Shown in pieces: positions 949-24,085 of a stretch of DNA of 32,843 nucleotides. A model generated the notes under the pieces. It was not told the origin of the DNA. It saw only the letters and a program-made list of their open reading frames with translations, and did no database searches. A program made the translations under genes and the position numbers. The DNA comes from an uncultured Prevotellaceae bacterium (lineage in GTDB: Bacteria > Bacteroidota > Bacteroidia > Bacteroidales > Bacteroidaceae), in assembly GCA_902784755.1 (NCBI GenBank), contig CACZVX010000021.1, positions 1 to 32,843 of the forward strand, written 5' to 3'. Position 1 is the stretch's first letter; every line of letters starts with the position of its first letter.

Positions 949-960
949 TGAAAATGAGTA

Positions 961-1067
961 GTTGAGAAAATGAGAGAATGAGAAATTATTGGGTAAAGCC
1001 ATTATTAATGGTTAAAAAAACATAAAACCCTTCATTTCTCATTTTCTCATTTTCTCATTCTCTCAAT
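961..1067. repeat. Long inverted repeat of degenerate GAGAATGA units (thrS-infC)
   Basis: The left arm (961-986) is a run of GAGAAAATGA-like units. The right arm (1034-1067) is TTTCTCATTTTCTCATT-like. The reverse complement of the left arm matches the right arm at 23 of 24 positions. The 47-nt spacer holds a small palindrome, CCATTATTAATGG (999-1011). The right arm runs almost directly into the infC promoter. There is no T-tract straight after the hairpin, so it is not a textbook terminator, although it could separate thrS from infC transcription. The same architecture recurs upstream of rpsF (21847-21982) and inside the U32 gene (12133-12252). Confidence 0.8.
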
Positions 1068-1072
1068 TTCTT

Positions 1073-5513: not shown

Positions 5514-7478
5514 ATGATATCAGTTGAAGGACTTAAGGTAGAATTTGGTGTCAAGCCTCTATTTCACGATGCGAATTTCGTGATTAATCAGCGTGACCGT
5601 ATTGCCTTGGTAGGCAAAAATGGTGCAGGGAAATCGACATTGCTCAAGATTCTCTGTGGCATGCAGAAAGCTACTGAGGGTGTGGTCAGTGTGCCCAACG
5701 ACACCACGATGGGTTATCTGCCTCAGGTAATGAAACTGGTAGACGAAACGACCGTACGTGAAGAGGCGCGTAAGGCTTTTGCTGATCATACGAAGATGGC
5801 AGAACGCTTGGAACGTATGAACCGTGAATTGTCGGAGCGTACTGATTATGAAACGGAAGAATATATGGACCTCGTGCAGCGTTACACTGAGGCCCATGAG
5901 CGCTATCAGATGATGGGGGCTGAAGGTTATGAGGCAGAGATTGAACGAACACTTACAGGCTTAGGTTTCGAGCGTACTGATTTTGAGCGTCCTACGAAAG
6001 AGTTCTCAGGTGGTTGGCGCATGCGTATCGAATTGGCAAAGATTCTTCTGCGTAAGCCTGATGTGCTGTTGCTTGACGAGCCGACTAACCATCTTGATAT
6101 TGAAAGTATCCAATGGTTGGAACAGTTTCTTGCAACGAGTGGTAGCGCAGTGGTGTTGGTAAGCCATGATCGTGCCTTTATTAACAATGTGACGAATCGC
6201 ACCATGGAAATCTCCTGCGGACAGATTATCGACTATCGGGTGAAATATGATGAGTATGTAGTGTTGCGCAAAGAGCGTCGCGAACAGCAGATTCGTGCCT
6301 ATGAGAATCAGCAGAAAGAGATAGCAGACATCCGTCAGTTCGTGGACCGTTTCCGCTATCAGGCAACCAAGGCCATACAGGTACAGCAGCGTCTTCGTCA
6401 ATTGGAGAAGATTGTCCCAATAGAAATTGATGAAGTGGATAATTCTACTTTACGCCTGAAATTCCCTCCATGTCTGAGAAGTGGTGACTATCCCGTCATT
6501 TGCGATGAAGTTGGGAAAAGCTATGGTGAGCATACTGTGTTTTCCCATGTTAATATGACAATAAAGCGTGGTGAGAAAGTTGCTTTTGTAGGAAAGAACG
6601 GAGAAGGAAAGTCAACACTGGTGAAATGCATCATGGGTGAAATTCCTTTTACCGGATATTTGAAAATTGGCCATAACGTGCAGATAGGCTATTTTGCACA
6701 AAACCAGGCACAGTTACTCGATGAGTCGCTAACTGTCTTTGACACGATAGACCGTGTGGCTACTGGGGATGTACGTCTACGCATCAATGATATTCTGGGT
6801 GCCTTTATGTTTGGCGGTGAGGAATCGGAGAAACGTGTAAGGGTGTTGAGTGGTGGTGAGCGTAGCCGTTTGGCCATGATAAAACTACTTTTGGAACCTG
6901 TAAACCTTCTCATTCTCGACGAGCCTACCAATCATTTGGATATGCCTTCCAAGGATGTGTTGAAGGAAGCGATTCGCGCATTCGATGGTACTGCTATCAT
7001 TGTAAGTCACGACCGTGAATTCCTCGATGGACTTGTTTCCAAAGTCTATGAGTTTGGTGGTGGTAAGGTGCGTGAACATCTGGGTGGTATTTATGATTGG
7101 ATAAATGCCCGTCCTCAATCCCTCCCGAAGGAAGGGAAGCCTGATATATCCCCAGCTCAGGAAAACATTGTGGGAAAGCAGTTGTCTAAAAGTAATAAAG
7201 GCACCATCCCTTCGGAAGGGCAGGGGGCTGGTTCCTACGCTGAGCGTAAAGAACGCTTGAAAAAGAAGTCCCGTTTGGAGAAAAGCATCAAGGAAATAGA
7301 GAAAAAGATAGAAACTCTTGAAAACCGGATTGCTGAGCTTGATGCTATTCTTTGTACACCCGAAGGTGCCTCAGATATGACTATAGTTACCGAATACACT
7401 TCAACGAAGAAAGTTATTGATCAAGAAACTGACCGATGGGCTCAGCTTTCTGAGGAATTAGAAGGTATTCAACTCTGA
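5514..7478 (+). CDS. ABC-F family ATPase (ribosome-associated type)
   Basis: Two ABC cassettes lie in one chain without membrane segments, which defines ABC-F; members act on the ribosome. Cassette 1 has Walker A GKNGAGKST, signature FSGGWRMRIELAK and Walker B VLLLDEPTNHLD. The linker (about residues 240-310) is helical and charged. Cassette 2 has GKNGEGKST, LSGGERSRLAMIK and LLILDEPTNHLD. Both catalytic glutamates are present. At 654 residues it ends in a charged coiled coil (KKSRLEKSIKEIEKKIETLE), as in Uup/YdiF-like members. Between cassette 2 and the coiled coil is a Pro/Gly/Ser-rich stretch (about residues 535-575) encoded by palindromic repeat DNA at 7114-7230. It diverges from tex and is followed closely by the M13 peptidase. 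Housekeeping translation factor is more likely than antibiotic resistance, but the sequence alone does not decide this. Confidence 0.93.
   Translation: MISVEGLKVEFGVKPLFHDANFVINQRDRIALVGKNGAGKSTLLKILCGMQKATEGVVSVPNDTTMGYLPQVMKLVDETTVREEARKAFADHTKMAERLERMNRELSERTDYETEEYMDLVQRYTEAHERYQMMGAEGYEAEIERTLTGLGFERTDFERPTKEFSGGWRMRIELAKILLRKPDVLLLDEPTNHLDIESIQWLEQFLATSGSAVVLVSHDRAFINNVTNRTMEISCGQIIDYRVKYDEYVVLRKERREQQIRAYENQQKEIADIRQFVDRFRYQATKAIQVQQRLRQLEKIVPIEIDEVDNSTLRLKFPPCLRSGDYPVICDEVGKSYGEHTVFSHVNMTIKRGEKVAFVGKNGEGKSTLVKCIMGEIPFTGYLKIGHNVQIGYFAQNQAQLLDESLTVFDTIDRVATGDVRLRINDILGAFMFGGEESEKRVRVLSGGERSRLAMIKLLLEPVNLLILDEPTNHLDMPSKDVLKEAIRAFDGTAIIVSHDREFLDGLVSKVYEFGGGKVREHLGGIYDWINARPQSLPKEGKPDISPAQENIVGKQLSKSNKGTIPSEGQGAGSYAERKERLKKKSRLEKSIKEIEKKIETLENRIAELDAILCTPEGASDMTIVTEYTSTKKVIDQETDRWAQLSEELEGIQL
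7114..7230. repeat. GC-rich palindromic repeat pair inside the ABC-F gene
   Basis: CCCTCCCGAAGGAAGGGA (7120-7137) and CATCCCTTCGGAAGGGCAGG (from 7206) are each near-palindromes, with an A-rich spacer between them. The stretch of about 117 nt is open in frame and adds roughly 39 residues (PKEGKPDISPAQ, then NKGTIPSEGQGAG) to a linker. Similar CCCTCCC palindromes occur in hemW and after metA. Confidence 0.65.
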
Positions 7479-10671: not shown

Positions 10672-10704
10672 TTCTTGATTAAAGTTCGTAAACTCGATAT
10701 TTTT

Positions 10705-12564
10705 GTGAAACAAACCATAGAACTGTTGGCTCCTGCCAAAAATCTTGCATGCGGCATCGCGGCTATCGACCACGGTGCTGATGCCGTATATATAGGGGCA
10801 CAACGGTTTGGAGCTCGTGTGGCTGCAGGAAACCCTGTGGAGGATATCGCTGAACTTTGTCATTATGCTCATCAGTATGGTGCCAAAGTCTATGTTACTG
10901 TAAATACGATTATCTACGACAATGAACTGGAGGATATCCAGCAGCTGCTGAAAAAAATTGAAAAAGCAGGTGCCGATGCCATATTGGTACAGGATTCTTC
11001 ACTCTTCACTCTTCACTCTTCACTACCTCTTCATGCTTCTACTCAGACAGATAATCGCACGCCTGAAAAGGTGAGATGGCTTCGTTCCATGGGATTCAAG
11101 CGTGTCGTGCTAGCCCGTGAGCTCTCCGTTGAAGAGATTCGTAAGATTCATCAGGAAGTCCCAGATGTAGAACTGGAAGTGTTTGTGCATGGTGCCCTTT
11201 GTGTGAGTTACAGCGGACAGTGTTATGCCTCGCAGTATTGTTTCGGACGCAGCGCCAACCGTGGCGCTTGTGCTCAGTTCTGCCGTCTGCCATTTGATTT
11301 GGTAGATAGTGAAGGACGCATGATAGAGCGCGGACGTCATCTGTTGTCCCTGAAAGACCTTTGCCAGATAGACCATCTGGAGGAACTGATGGAAGCAGGA
11401 GCCGTTTCGTTCAAAATAGAGGGACGCCTTAAGGACGTTGACTATGTGAAGAATGTGACTGCAGCCTACAGTCAGCGGCTCAATCAGATTATTGCCCGTC
11501 ATCCTGAACGTTATCAGCGAGCCTCAAAAGGGCGCATTACTTACACTTTTGAGCCGAATCTGAAAAAGACTTTCAATCGCGGCTTTACCACTTATTTCCT
11601 GCATGGACGTCAGCCGAACATATTCTCTCCCGATACGCCTAAAGCCTTAGGGGAGTATGTTGGGAAGGTGAAGGAGATTCGGCGTGACTCTTTCAATGTG
11701 GCCGGAACAGCCAGTTTTGCCAATGGTGATGGACTCTGCTTCTTTAACGCGAAAGAACTGGTTGGTTTCCGTGTGAACCGTGCTGAAGGCAACAGGCTTT
11801 ATCCTTTCAAGATGCCCGTTGGACTGAAGCCCGGTATAGTGCTCTATCGGAATAATGATATGGAGTTCGAACGCTTGATGGCCGGACAGACTGCGGAGCG
11901 AAAGATCCCCATAACGATGACACTTGAAGCCGTTGATGGTGGATTTACATTGAATGGAAAGTTCTTTGCTGCTGAACACCAACAAGCGCAGAAACCTCAA
12001 CGTGAGAATATCGTGAGACAACTGTCGAAACTTGGCAGAACGCCTTATGTCTGCGAGCAAGTGAATCTGCTACCGGACGATTTCAACTATTTCATTCCGA
12101 GCAGCATGCTGGCGGAGTGGAGAAGGACAGTAATTGAGAATGCAGAATGTAGAATGGAGAATAATGAATACAATTTGAGGGACGATTCTGCATTTGATTC
12201 TGAAAAAGGTAATCATCATTCTACAATCTCCGATCTCCGATCTCCATTAAATACTCGTTTCCCTTACCTCTATAACGTATCCAATGCCAAGGCGCGCGCT
12301 TTCTATGCGGCTCAGGGCGTTCCCAATGCTACTTCCCTAGAATCCCCTATTACCACGGTTGAGAAAAAGGAAGAACCACTTCTTATGCAATGTCGTCATT
12401 GCTTAAGATATTCTTTTGGATATTGTGTGAAGAACGGCGGGGAAAGACCCGCATGGAAGGAACCGCTCTATCTCGTTTCTGATGACGGTCGCCGGTTCCG
12501 TCTGGAGTTTGATTGCAGAAACTGTCAGATGAACGTTTATGGCACTTCGATAAAAGACAAATGA
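10705..12564 (+). CDS. U32-family (peptidase U32 / RlhA-like) protein
   Basis: The N-terminal barrel starts IELLAPAKNLACGIAAIDHG and contains HASTQTDNRTPEKVRWLRSM and VVLARELSVEEI. The U32 signature is FVHGALCVSYSGQCYASQYC, followed by RGACAQFCRLPFDL. The C-terminus has further cysteines (MQCRHCLRYSFGYC and FDCRNCQMNVY). This full-length layout resembles E. coli RlhA, an iron-sulfur protein needed for 23S rRNA C2501 hydroxylation, more than the shorter TrhP. An RNA hydroxylation role is inference; the historical name is collagenase-like protease. I placed the start at GTG 10705 (VKQTIELLAPA), which fits where homologs begin; TTG 10675 is also in frame. Two stretches encoded by repeat-like DNA interrupt it: 10990-11035 and 12133-12252. 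It is probably co-transcribed with metA and the next gene. Confidence 0.9.
   Translation: MKQTIELLAPAKNLACGIAAIDHGADAVYIGAQRFGARVAAGNPVEDIAELCHYAHQYGAKVYVTVNTIIYDNELEDIQQLLKKIEKAGADAILVQDSSLFTLHSSLPLHASTQTDNRTPEKVRWLRSMGFKRVVLARELSVEEIRKIHQEVPDVELEVFVHGALCVSYSGQCYASQYCFGRSANRGACAQFCRLPFDLVDSEGRMIERGRHLLSLKDLCQIDHLEELMEAGAVSFKIEGRLKDVDYVKNVTAAYSQRLNQIIARHPERYQRASKGRITYTFEPNLKKTFNRGFTTYFLHGRQPNIFSPDTPKALGEYVGKVKEIRRDSFNVAGTASFANGDGLCFFNAKELVGFRVNRAEGNRLYPFKMPVGLKPGIVLYRNNDMEFERLMAGQTAERKIPITMTLEAVDGGFTLNGKFFAAEHQQAQKPQRENIVRQLSKLGRTPYVCEQVNLLPDDFNYFIPSSMLAEWRRTVIENAECRMENNEYNLRDDSAFDSEKGNHHSTISDLRSPLNTRFPYLYNVSNAKARAFYAAQGVPNATSLESPITTVEKKEEPLLMQCRHCLRYSFGYCVKNGGERPAWKEPLYLVSDDGRRFRLEFDCRNCQMNVYGTSIKDK
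10990..11035 (+). repeat. CTTCACT tandem tract inside the U32 gene
   Basis: Four CTTCACT units follow a GATTCTTCACTCT 13-mer (10993-11005). The same 13-mer begins the tract inside trmN6 (23669-23681). It encodes DSSLFTLHSSLPL between the conserved ILVQ strand and HASTQTD. Confidence 0.7.
12133..12252. repeat. Inverted-arm repeat element inside the U32 gene, in frame
   Basis: The left arm (12133-12169) is a run of GAGAATG/TAGAATGG units. The right arm (12211-12252) is TCTCCGATCTCCGATCTCC-like and ends in CTCCATTAAAT. Positions 12212-12251 match 21943-21982, upstream of rpsF, at 32 of 40 positions without gaps. The stretch is 120 nt, exactly 40 codons, and adds a polar segment (ENAECRMENNEYN, then DSEKGNHHSTISDLRSP) before the conserved NVSNAKARAFY. 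Confidence 0.75.
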
Positions 12565-13621: not shown

Positions 13622-13678
13622 GTTTGTTGTCCGTATCTGCCTTGTCAGCTTTCTATGTTCTTCTGCCATGCTTCTACG

Positions 13679-13791
13679 CCTCAGAAGCATTGTAAGAAAG
13701 CCCCAGAAGTATTGTAATAATGCTCCAGAGACATTGTAAGAATGCCCCAGAGACATTGTAAGAATGCTCCAGAGGCATTGTAAGAATGCGC
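13679..13791. repeat. Five-copy 22-bp tandem repeat
   Basis: The unit CCAGAGACATTGTAAGAATGC(T/C) recurs with ATTGTAA at 13689, 13711, 13733, 13755 and 13777, an exact 22-nt period. The outer copies are more diverged. Each unit holds CATT-GTAAG-AATG, a short inverted repeat. The array lies in a 455-nt gene-free stretch (13533-13987) that otherwise holds only hairpins. The period is not a multiple of three and no credible ORF crosses it. Confidence 0.95.
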
Positions 13792-13850
13792 TGGAAACAA
13801 CGCTTCCACTACATTTAGGCAACTCTTCTATTTGTGGTTAGGCTACATGA

Positions 13851-21836: not shown

Positions 21837-21846
21837 TTTCTTTGGA

Positions 21847-21982
21847 TGTAGAATGAAGAGTGGAGAATGTAGAATTATGATTACTTTTTGCGGGTGTCAA
21901 TTGGTGATAATCTGCAAGAAAGGTTAAAATCCTTTAAATCAAATCATAATTCTATATTCTCCATTCTCGATTCTCCATTAAA
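21847..21982. repeat. Long inverted repeat of degenerate TAGAATG units (rprY-rpsF)
   Basis: The left arm (21847-21882) has TGTAGAATGAAGAGTGGAGA-like units. The right arm (from 21942) has AATTCTATATTCTCCATTCT-like units. Over 36 nt the arms are complementary at 31 positions, with a 59-nt spacer. The right arm ends 5 nt before the rpsF -7 box. The layout mirrors 961-1067, and the right arm is a close relative of 12212-12251 in the U32 gene. Confidence 0.8.
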
Positions 21983-23353: not shown

Positions 23354-24085
23354 ATGTCCAACTCCTATTTCTCATTCAAGCAATTCACAGTTCATCAGGA
23401 ACGATGCGCTATGAAAGTCGGAACTGATGGAACCTTACTCGGTGCATGGGCGAGGGGAGGGACCCATATCCTTGATATTGGAACTGGTACGGGATTGATA
23501 GCTTTGATGATGGCCCAGCGTTTCCCCGAAGCCTCGGTGGATGCTATTGACATCGATGCCGATGCATGTGAACAGGCCCGACAGAATGTTGCCGCTTCGC
23601 CCTTTGCTGCTCGCATTCAAGTCCATGAATCCTCCTTGCAAAACTACAAACTCTATTGCCCTTCCGAAGATTCTTCACTCTCCTCTCTCCTCACTCCTCT
23701 CTCCTCTTATTACGATTCCATTGTCTCTAATCCACCTTATTTTGAACAATCATTGAAAGCCCCAGATGTCCAGCGTTCTTTGGCGCGTCATACCGATAGT
23801 CTTTCTTATCGTGATTTGTTGCAGGGAGTCGTAAGTCATCTGGAGAGTGGGGGAGAGTTTTCCGTTATTATTCCCTTTGATTGCCGTTCGCGTTTTGAAG
23901 CGGAAGCCATTATAGTAGGACTCTACCCCTCCAGGGTCTGTGCTGTGAAAACCACTAATCGCAAATCTCCCCGACGCTATCTTCTAGCTTTCCGCAAGCA
24001 TCCGGGAGAAATAGAAACATCGGAACTCATAATGAATTCCGATGCCTATCATGATCTGGTGAAAGATTTCTATCTTAAAGGTTAA
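23354..24085 (+). CDS. trmN6: tRNA1(Val) adenine-37 N6-methyltransferase
   Basis: SAM-dependent methyltransferase that modifies A37 of tRNA-Val. The N-terminus is characteristic: FSFKQFTVHQERCAMKVGTD and GTLLGAWA. The SAM loop is DIGTGTGLIALMMAQRF, the acidic ribose-binding strand VDAIDIDADAC, and the catalytic adenine-methylase motif NPPYF. DVQRSLARHTDSLSYRDLL follows. At 243 residues it carries an extra serine-rich stretch (PSEDSSLSSLLTPLSS) just before the strand leading to NPPY, encoded by the repeat tract 23669-23713. No promoter was found between the rplI terminator and its ATG. Confidence 0.9.
   Translation: MSNSYFSFKQFTVHQERCAMKVGTDGTLLGAWARGGTHILDIGTGTGLIALMMAQRFPEASVDAIDIDADACEQARQNVAASPFAARIQVHESSLQNYKLYCPSEDSSLSSLLTPLSSYYDSIVSNPPYFEQSLKAPDVQRSLARHTDSLSYRDLLQGVVSHLESGGEFSVIIPFDCRSRFEAEAIIVGLYPSRVCAVKTTNRKSPRRYLLAFRKHPGEIETSELIMNSDAYHDLVKDFYLKG
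23669..23713 (+). repeat. CTCTCCTCACTCC tandem tract inside trmN6
   Basis: GATTCTTCACTCT (23669-23681) followed by CTCTCCTCACTCCTCTCTCC-type units. The same 13-mer opens the tract in the U32 gene at 10993. It codes for SSLSSLLTPLSS, in frame. Confidence 0.7.

Follow-up and report, generated by a model that had tools for sequence, protein, structure and literature searches.

Most known cases of palindromic DNA that codes for protein come from Rickettsia and Wolbachia, both of which live inside host cells. Rickettsia palindromic elements (RPEs) are described as dispersed palindromic sequences of about 100-150 bp, found between genes and in frame inside unrelated genes, with a recurring peptide in exposed regions (PMC10969869, PMC3767692). 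BrickBuilt, a MITE of Porphyromonas gingivalis, combines inverted repeats with tandem repeats; its repeats are described as 23 nt long, its TIRs as resembling those of known IS elements and its location as always intergenic (PMC4596501). The heptamers of Xanthomonas and Nostoc (and the cyanobacterial STRR) are presented as tandem 7-nt units, some of them inverted; those of Xanthomonas and Nostoc form G-rich arrays that were studied for quadruplexes, with 7-11% reported as intragenic in Xanthomonas and 32% as not intergenic in Nostoc (PMC4692102). REP sequences are defined as palindromes of 20-40 bp with a GTAG or CGTC tag (PMC3733652). Here we describe a repeat family found in a window of 32,843 nucleotides, which is one complete contig of the genome of an uncultured Prevotellaceae bacterium (3.09 Mb, 147 contigs, 84% complete), referred to below as the host genome.

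Elements in the U32 gene and upstream of rpsF

The U32 peptidase-family gene of the window (10675..12564, + strand; an ORF with the Pfam domains Peptidase_U32 and DUF3656) hosts two coding repeats, and its frame stays open over 629 aa from 10675, as a first-pass annotation of this DNA had stated. One of the repeats consists of a left arm with degenerate heptamers and an inner motif (12133..12171, - strand; outer limit set by eye), a spacer of 37 nt (12172..12208, + strand) and a right arm made of GTAATCATCATTCT and heptamers, coding for GNHHSTISDLRSPL (12209..12251, + strand). The two arms themselves were placed at 12151-12171 (-) and 12209-12229 (+), with 37 nt between them, and a period of 7 is found at 12137-12162 and 12226-12245. 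A second element lies upstream of rpsF, with a left arm at 21845..21884 (- strand), a spacer of 55 nt at 21885..21939 (+ strand) and a right arm at 21940..21982 (+ strand) directly 5' of TAGTACCTTTG, which we take to be a promoter-like site. The right arms of the two elements (12212-12251 and 21943-21982) are identical at 32 of 40 positions, on the same strand and without gaps, in agreement with the initial report. A related-looking hairpin, built of the 8-nt units TTTCTCAT, stands before infC (950..1071, unstranded) and is followed by the same promoter-like sequence.

When folded as single-stranded DNA and compared with shuffles, the rpsF element (z -8.17), the infC hairpin (-7.1) and the intergenic copy L224 (-7.0) were matched by none of 200 shuffles each. 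The U32 copy had a z of -0.62, and 58 of 200 shuffles folded equally well. The inverted arms that had been claimed for U32 are present, as an inverted repeat of 28 nt with 75% identity, but they fold no better than shuffled sequence.

The rpsF site was compared with the loci of seven relatives, five of which yielded the interval between the upstream gene and rpsF. In the four nearest (L364-L367) this interval holds a different hairpin with TTTCTCAT-like 8-nt units, and in the fifth (L369) a CATTTCT array. The host copy has new arms, and its spacer keeps a middle, GGTTAAAA...AATCC, that resembles by eye the one in the older hairpin of L364-L367. Elsewhere in the window, an intergenic 22-nt tandem repeat occurs in five copies at 13678-13799, and a similar 22-nt array lies near L007.

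A dispersed arm family and its range

The arms belong to a dispersed family in which an inner motif, GTAATCATAAYTCT, carries an outward array of degenerate 7-nt units; a common arrangement, established by reading matches individually, is arm, spacer and inverted arm, with the motif side facing the spacer. A pattern of the inner motif plus two 7-nt units, with at most 2 mismatches, matched the host genome 52 times, compared with once for the reversed pattern used as control. A looser pattern without the inner motif gave 39 matches against 21 for its control and was discarded as a measure of the family. The specificity is therefore due to the inner motif, and not to the 7-mers alone. Reading 34 stretches of the host genome together with the window gave 40 element entries, including 10 close inverted pairs, and 14 of the 40 entries fell within long ORFs. 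The proposal that one family is both intergenic, next to a promoter, and coding was thus borne out, and the genome search that had been suggested for further arm copies found many, genic as well as intergenic.

Spacers measured 27-41 nt in 8 of the 10 close pairs, 55 nt in the rpsF element and 204 nt in L225; a similar spacer recurs, as judged by eye, across several copies in two other genomes, G028 and G044. Two host elements (L231 and L247) keep the inner motif with units other than the usual ones, and the L225 element contains a further repeat with 8 matches in the host genome. The two arms of one element were more alike than arms of different elements: identity was 0.705 within elements and 0.638 after re-dealing arms within genomes (p 0.0004, 10,000 draws), for 24 arm pairs from three genomes (10 from the host, 8 from G028 and 6 from G044; G031 gave none), a figure dragged down by the pairs in L219 and L227, which were picked by script and look false. 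An 83-nt repeat, TTCTCGTGCAAACGAG...GATTAC (L061:1501-1583), has 8 matches in the host genome, some of them inside elements of the motif family. On the opposite strand, several solo arms of G031 and G636 resemble ATGATTACC starts of lipoprotein-like genes (L345, L346, L350, L351 and L362); by eye, the motif may supply start codons there.

In a sample of the phylum, 16 of 395 genomes had a match, 40 in the host and one or two in each of the remaining 15. The control pattern matched in 13 genomes of this sample (counted from the listing), so the sparse matches of the other 15 look like chance. Within the genus, matches were found in 91 of 249 genomes, at 0 to 83 per genome (83 in G522, 51 in G058, 43 in G031, 40 in the host and 33 in G028). 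In a sample of 201 genomes of the family, searched with a slightly stricter pattern than the genus, at least 4 matches were present in 6 of 13 genomes of the host's genus and one each in 4 of 188 genomes of other genera. At this sensitivity, the motif family is confined to the genus.

These counts bear on the view that the intergenic hairpins are regulatory parts under selection and the coding copies their side products. Hairpins do precede the rpsF and infC promoters in the window, and four near relatives retain the hairpin with 8-nt units at the rpsF place. We nevertheless give this view hardly any weight, because numbers vary from 0 to 83 within one genus, because more than a third of the entries (the 14 of 40 mentioned above) are in genes, and because an Rfam search of the window returned a tRNA as its sole match.

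The 7-nt unit differed between genomes. Among the matches listed, it was TCTACA in G028 and G044, TCTGAA in G540, TCTCAA in G564, G530 and much of G636, and TCTTAA or TCTTCA in G031. Heptamer arrays as such do not set the genus apart. Across 950 kb of Prevotella-like loci, TRF detected 65 arrays of period 7 (compared with 1, 2 and 17 of periods 5, 6 and 8), and 8 Bacteroidaceae-type loci totalling 96 kb gave 6, a density about the same. This sample is biased: its 80 loci are the surroundings of U32, and U32 itself contained 29 of the 79 arrays of period 7 or 14. ORFs of at least 150 aa held 42 of these 79 arrays, with 37 outside; as such ORFs cover 91% of the sequence, genes contain fewer arrays than their share. 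A strict scan for inverted repeats, run on the window and the 80 loci, found 93, of which 9 were periodic (5 of period 7, 3 of period 8 and 1 of period 9), while one locally shuffled copy gave 1 and 0, respectively; the scan was too strict for diverged arms and was abandoned in favour of TRF.

The abundance of such arrays, also in Bacteroidaceae-type loci, could mean that these are ordinary simple-sequence repeats generated by local 7-nt slippage and involving no movement. In most genomes, heptanucleotides are indeed reported to outnumber the other classes, and polymerase slippage has been proposed as the cause (PMC4679880). Slippage cannot, however, place one and the same non-repeated motif, with its spacer, at dozens of sites, and we consider this explanation very improbable.

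Copies inside enzyme genes

Right arms were found inside genes at 13 sites in 12 unrelated genes, namely U32, GH2, GH31, GT2, lpd (twice), a LacZ-type beta-galactosidase, GH3, an arabinofuranosidase, a BT4734-like protein, RecQ (at the N-terminus), IspD and the CCA-adding enzyme. RecQ (L242) is the weakest of these, as its N-terminal element may supply the start codon; the GT2 ORF (L229) crosses a short run of undetermined bases from an adjacent gene, the element being within the GT2 part. All 13 right arms share one frame, (G/S)-N-H-(N/H)-S, which is notable as the motif leaves two frames open, although the left arm and the length of the spacer also constrain the frame, so that this count is no test. 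The fourteenth entry is the left arm in GH2, in frame and 440 nt from its right arm; it is also the exception among the 12 solo in-gene entries, the other 11 being right arms in gene sense. In GH2, conserved coding sequence lies between two inverted in-frame arms (L220:2716-3175).

Alignments indicate homologs without the insert at four sites, twice in lpd and once each in IspD and the CCA-adding enzyme. The lpd inserts corresponded to gaps of 13 and 22 residues against 2eq7_A, and the IspD insert to a gap of 12 residues against 5ddt_A; in the CCA-adding enzyme, 33 residues were unmatched between chain residues 83 and 85 of 4wby_A. Inserts can be single arms of about 40 nt. Both lpd inserts, with peptides such as NHNSTLYTLHSTL, were absent from 29 of 29 other genus loci aligned (the best-scoring ones, out of matches in 67 of 80 genomes), and at the second site at least 2 of these 29 relatives (L302 and L321) had other repeat-like peptides. 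Judging position by alignment, the in-gene survivors appear to sit in loops and linkers. Insertion into conserved enzymes is shown in this way for lpd, IspD and the CCA-adding enzyme; for U32, where 40 added codons had been proposed, it does not hold in that simple form.

A U32 match was found in all 80 genomes searched, some with a distant paralog only. The nearest relatives were Prevotella or Prevotellaceae, the four best with 77-78% identity over the best segment and two of them linked to goat or sheep omasum. Among 81 proteins (that of the host and 80 others), the element-bearing linker, as cut from the alignment, ranged from 19 to 94 aa (median 37, host 49), and Bacteroides-type proteins hold a similar linker of 37 aa. 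The alignment with orthologs that had been proposed as a check, read by eye, showed the host peptide in none of the 80 other U32 proteins. As the arms also have many copies, neither of the two outcomes that the first-pass annotation had named as refuting was observed. As far as the alignment tells, the element has largely overwritten a hypervariable linker and is not a clean addition of 40 codons. Of the 81 proteins, 7 had TRF arrays of period 7 or 14 in this linker and 12 had them in loop 1. The array sequences varied, so that the same U32 loops carry different arrays in different species.

Loop 1 holds the second coding repeat of the host gene, a TCTTCAC array (10993..11024, + strand) that encodes DSSLFTLHSSL. 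Bacteroides-type proteins have a MGITRLNLPPIP-like sequence in this loop and the host has SSLFTLHSSLP, of similar length; L139, L140 and L141 have the host type and L138 differs. This repeat represents a second family, with 88 matches against 0 for the control, a number that includes many 7-nt offsets of one array. Of 30 loci read, 19 were in ORFs of at least 150 aa: 13 distinct arrays code for DSSLFTLHSSL or a close variant of it, while a duplicate, arrays in other registers and ORFs in antisense make up the remaining 6.

Several further coding repeats were seen along the way. One beta-galactosidase (L234:3-3122) has three copies of DSSLFTLHSSL, one of GNHNSTLYTLHSTF and two peptides that represent a third kind, similar to NPSLREG. 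IspD (L243:429-1349) has a second insert, NPSLREGH, also at a gap against 5ddt_A. NPSLREGH recurs close to the IspD N-terminus, a pointer to a third family of coding repeats. In the window, a CTCTCCT heptamer array at 23669-23707 lies in a methyltransferase-like ORF and codes for DSSLSSLLTPLSS. The SLPKEG...PSEG linker of the ABC-F gene (5514-7478) resembled a further coding repeat but gives no evidence of an insertion, as the linkers of three relatives are nearly equally long with another sequence.

Possible routes of spread and comparison with described systems

The most likely explanation, to which we give an even chance, is that these short dispersed hairpin elements of one Prevotella-like genus spread in the manner of MITEs by an enzyme acting in trans. 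Under this mechanism, the elements would move by means of the putative enzyme. Slippage by 7 nt, together with copying from one arm to the other, would then lengthen and rewrite the arms; in-gene copies would persist only where no stop arises, the survivors occupying loops and linkers. What has been observed of it is the dispersal, the in-frame presence, the empty sites at four places and the coupling of the arms. Two of the three frames are open in the right arm, and all three in its array. An ATTCTAC array reads ATT CTA CAT TCT ACA TTC TAC, without a stop in any frame; such a stop-free 7-mer array is open in all frames because 21 nt take it through each frame in turn. The complementary array carries a TAG per unit, and therefore one in all frames over three units, so that a standard left arm must be degenerate or absent in genes. 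This agrees with the predominance of right arms in gene sense among the solo in-gene entries. We think that the host proteins tolerate the encoded peptide and that it serves no purpose itself.

The first-pass annotation had called the element mobile. Its dispersal suggests as much; no mobilising enzyme was identified, and the flanks, read by eye, displayed no consistent target duplication. RAYT (PF01797) was absent from the host genome (84% complete); among other genomes it occurred in 10 of 16 with high copy number and in 7 of 16 without copies. As it did not follow copy number, it was rejected as a general mover. Further observations run against this mechanism: the new rpsF arms enclose remains of an older hairpin, for which a simple insertion does not account; many in-gene copies show a right arm only; and the GH2 arms are 440 nt apart.

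Template switching in place of transposition is an alternative. A growing strand would jump, during replication or repair, into an array elsewhere, copy part of it and return, so that the single arm is the unit and existing array sites are overwritten repeatedly. The single right arms in genes are in line with this, as are the replacement of MGITRLNLPPIP by SSLFTLHSSLP in U32 loop 1, the rpsF arms that differ from those of relatives around a partly retained middle, the different arrays in the same U32 loops, and the lack of relation between RAYT and copy number. Whole units with similar spacers nevertheless recur at unrelated sites, which looks like the movement of whole elements, and we regard template switching as rather unlikely.

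A broader reading, which we put forward tentatively as possible but short of probable, is that an ongoing process overwrites protein loops and linkers with frame-tolerant cassettes. The 7-mers would be lineage-specific, the same loops would be refilled independently (counted here are two loops in U32 and one in lpd), the single arm, and not the entire palindrome, would be the moving coding unit, and the origin would be independent of Rickettsia. Since 7 is not a multiple of 3, a 7-mer array without stops is open in every frame and can act as a linker from the outset. Many genomes of this gut and rumen genus have been sequenced, with as many as 83 matches per genome; this would make it possible to watch repeats enter enzymes, and would also show which sites tolerate them and whether inserts ever gain a use. 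Repetitive peptides such as DSSLFTLHSSL and GNHNSTLYTLHSTL are suggested to be read as inserts first and as domains second. The genus offers another system for studying how repetitive DNA adds new stretches to proteins.

At the level of titles and abstracts, the open-access literature yielded no earlier description of such elements in Prevotella, and the part of the literature searched contained no system that joins a fixed inner motif to co-varying heptamer arms, units specific to each genome and coding copies in conserved enzymes. REPs and their RAYTs share with the present family the short dispersed palindromes; here RAYT is absent from the host genome and does not track copy number. The heptamers of Xanthomonas, Nostoc and STRR are likewise tandem 7-nt units, whereas the present unit adds a non-tandem motif and a spacer; in the parts consulted, the account of the Xanthomonas and Nostoc arrays describes no fixed inner motif with spacer. 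Porphyromonas gingivalis belongs to the same order of bacteria as the present host, and BrickBuilt is also an inverted-repeat element with tandem repeats inside; in contrast to it, the present family has many coding copies, and the search for a mover, which covered RAYT, turned up no IS with ends of this type. The RPEs resemble the present family in being dispersed, intergenic and in frame inside unrelated genes, where they code for a recurring peptide. The likeness drawn in the first-pass annotation thus stands for behaviour, which is all that supports it, and neither kinship nor membership is claimed. The RPE is a palindromic unit; here strong folding was seen for the intergenic copies but not for the U32 copy, and an in-gene insert may consist of one arm, about 40 nt long. 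Unlike RPEs, the present elements have periodic arms with 7-nt units that vary by genome, a single arm can serve as the coding insert, and the host is a member of a Prevotella-like genus.
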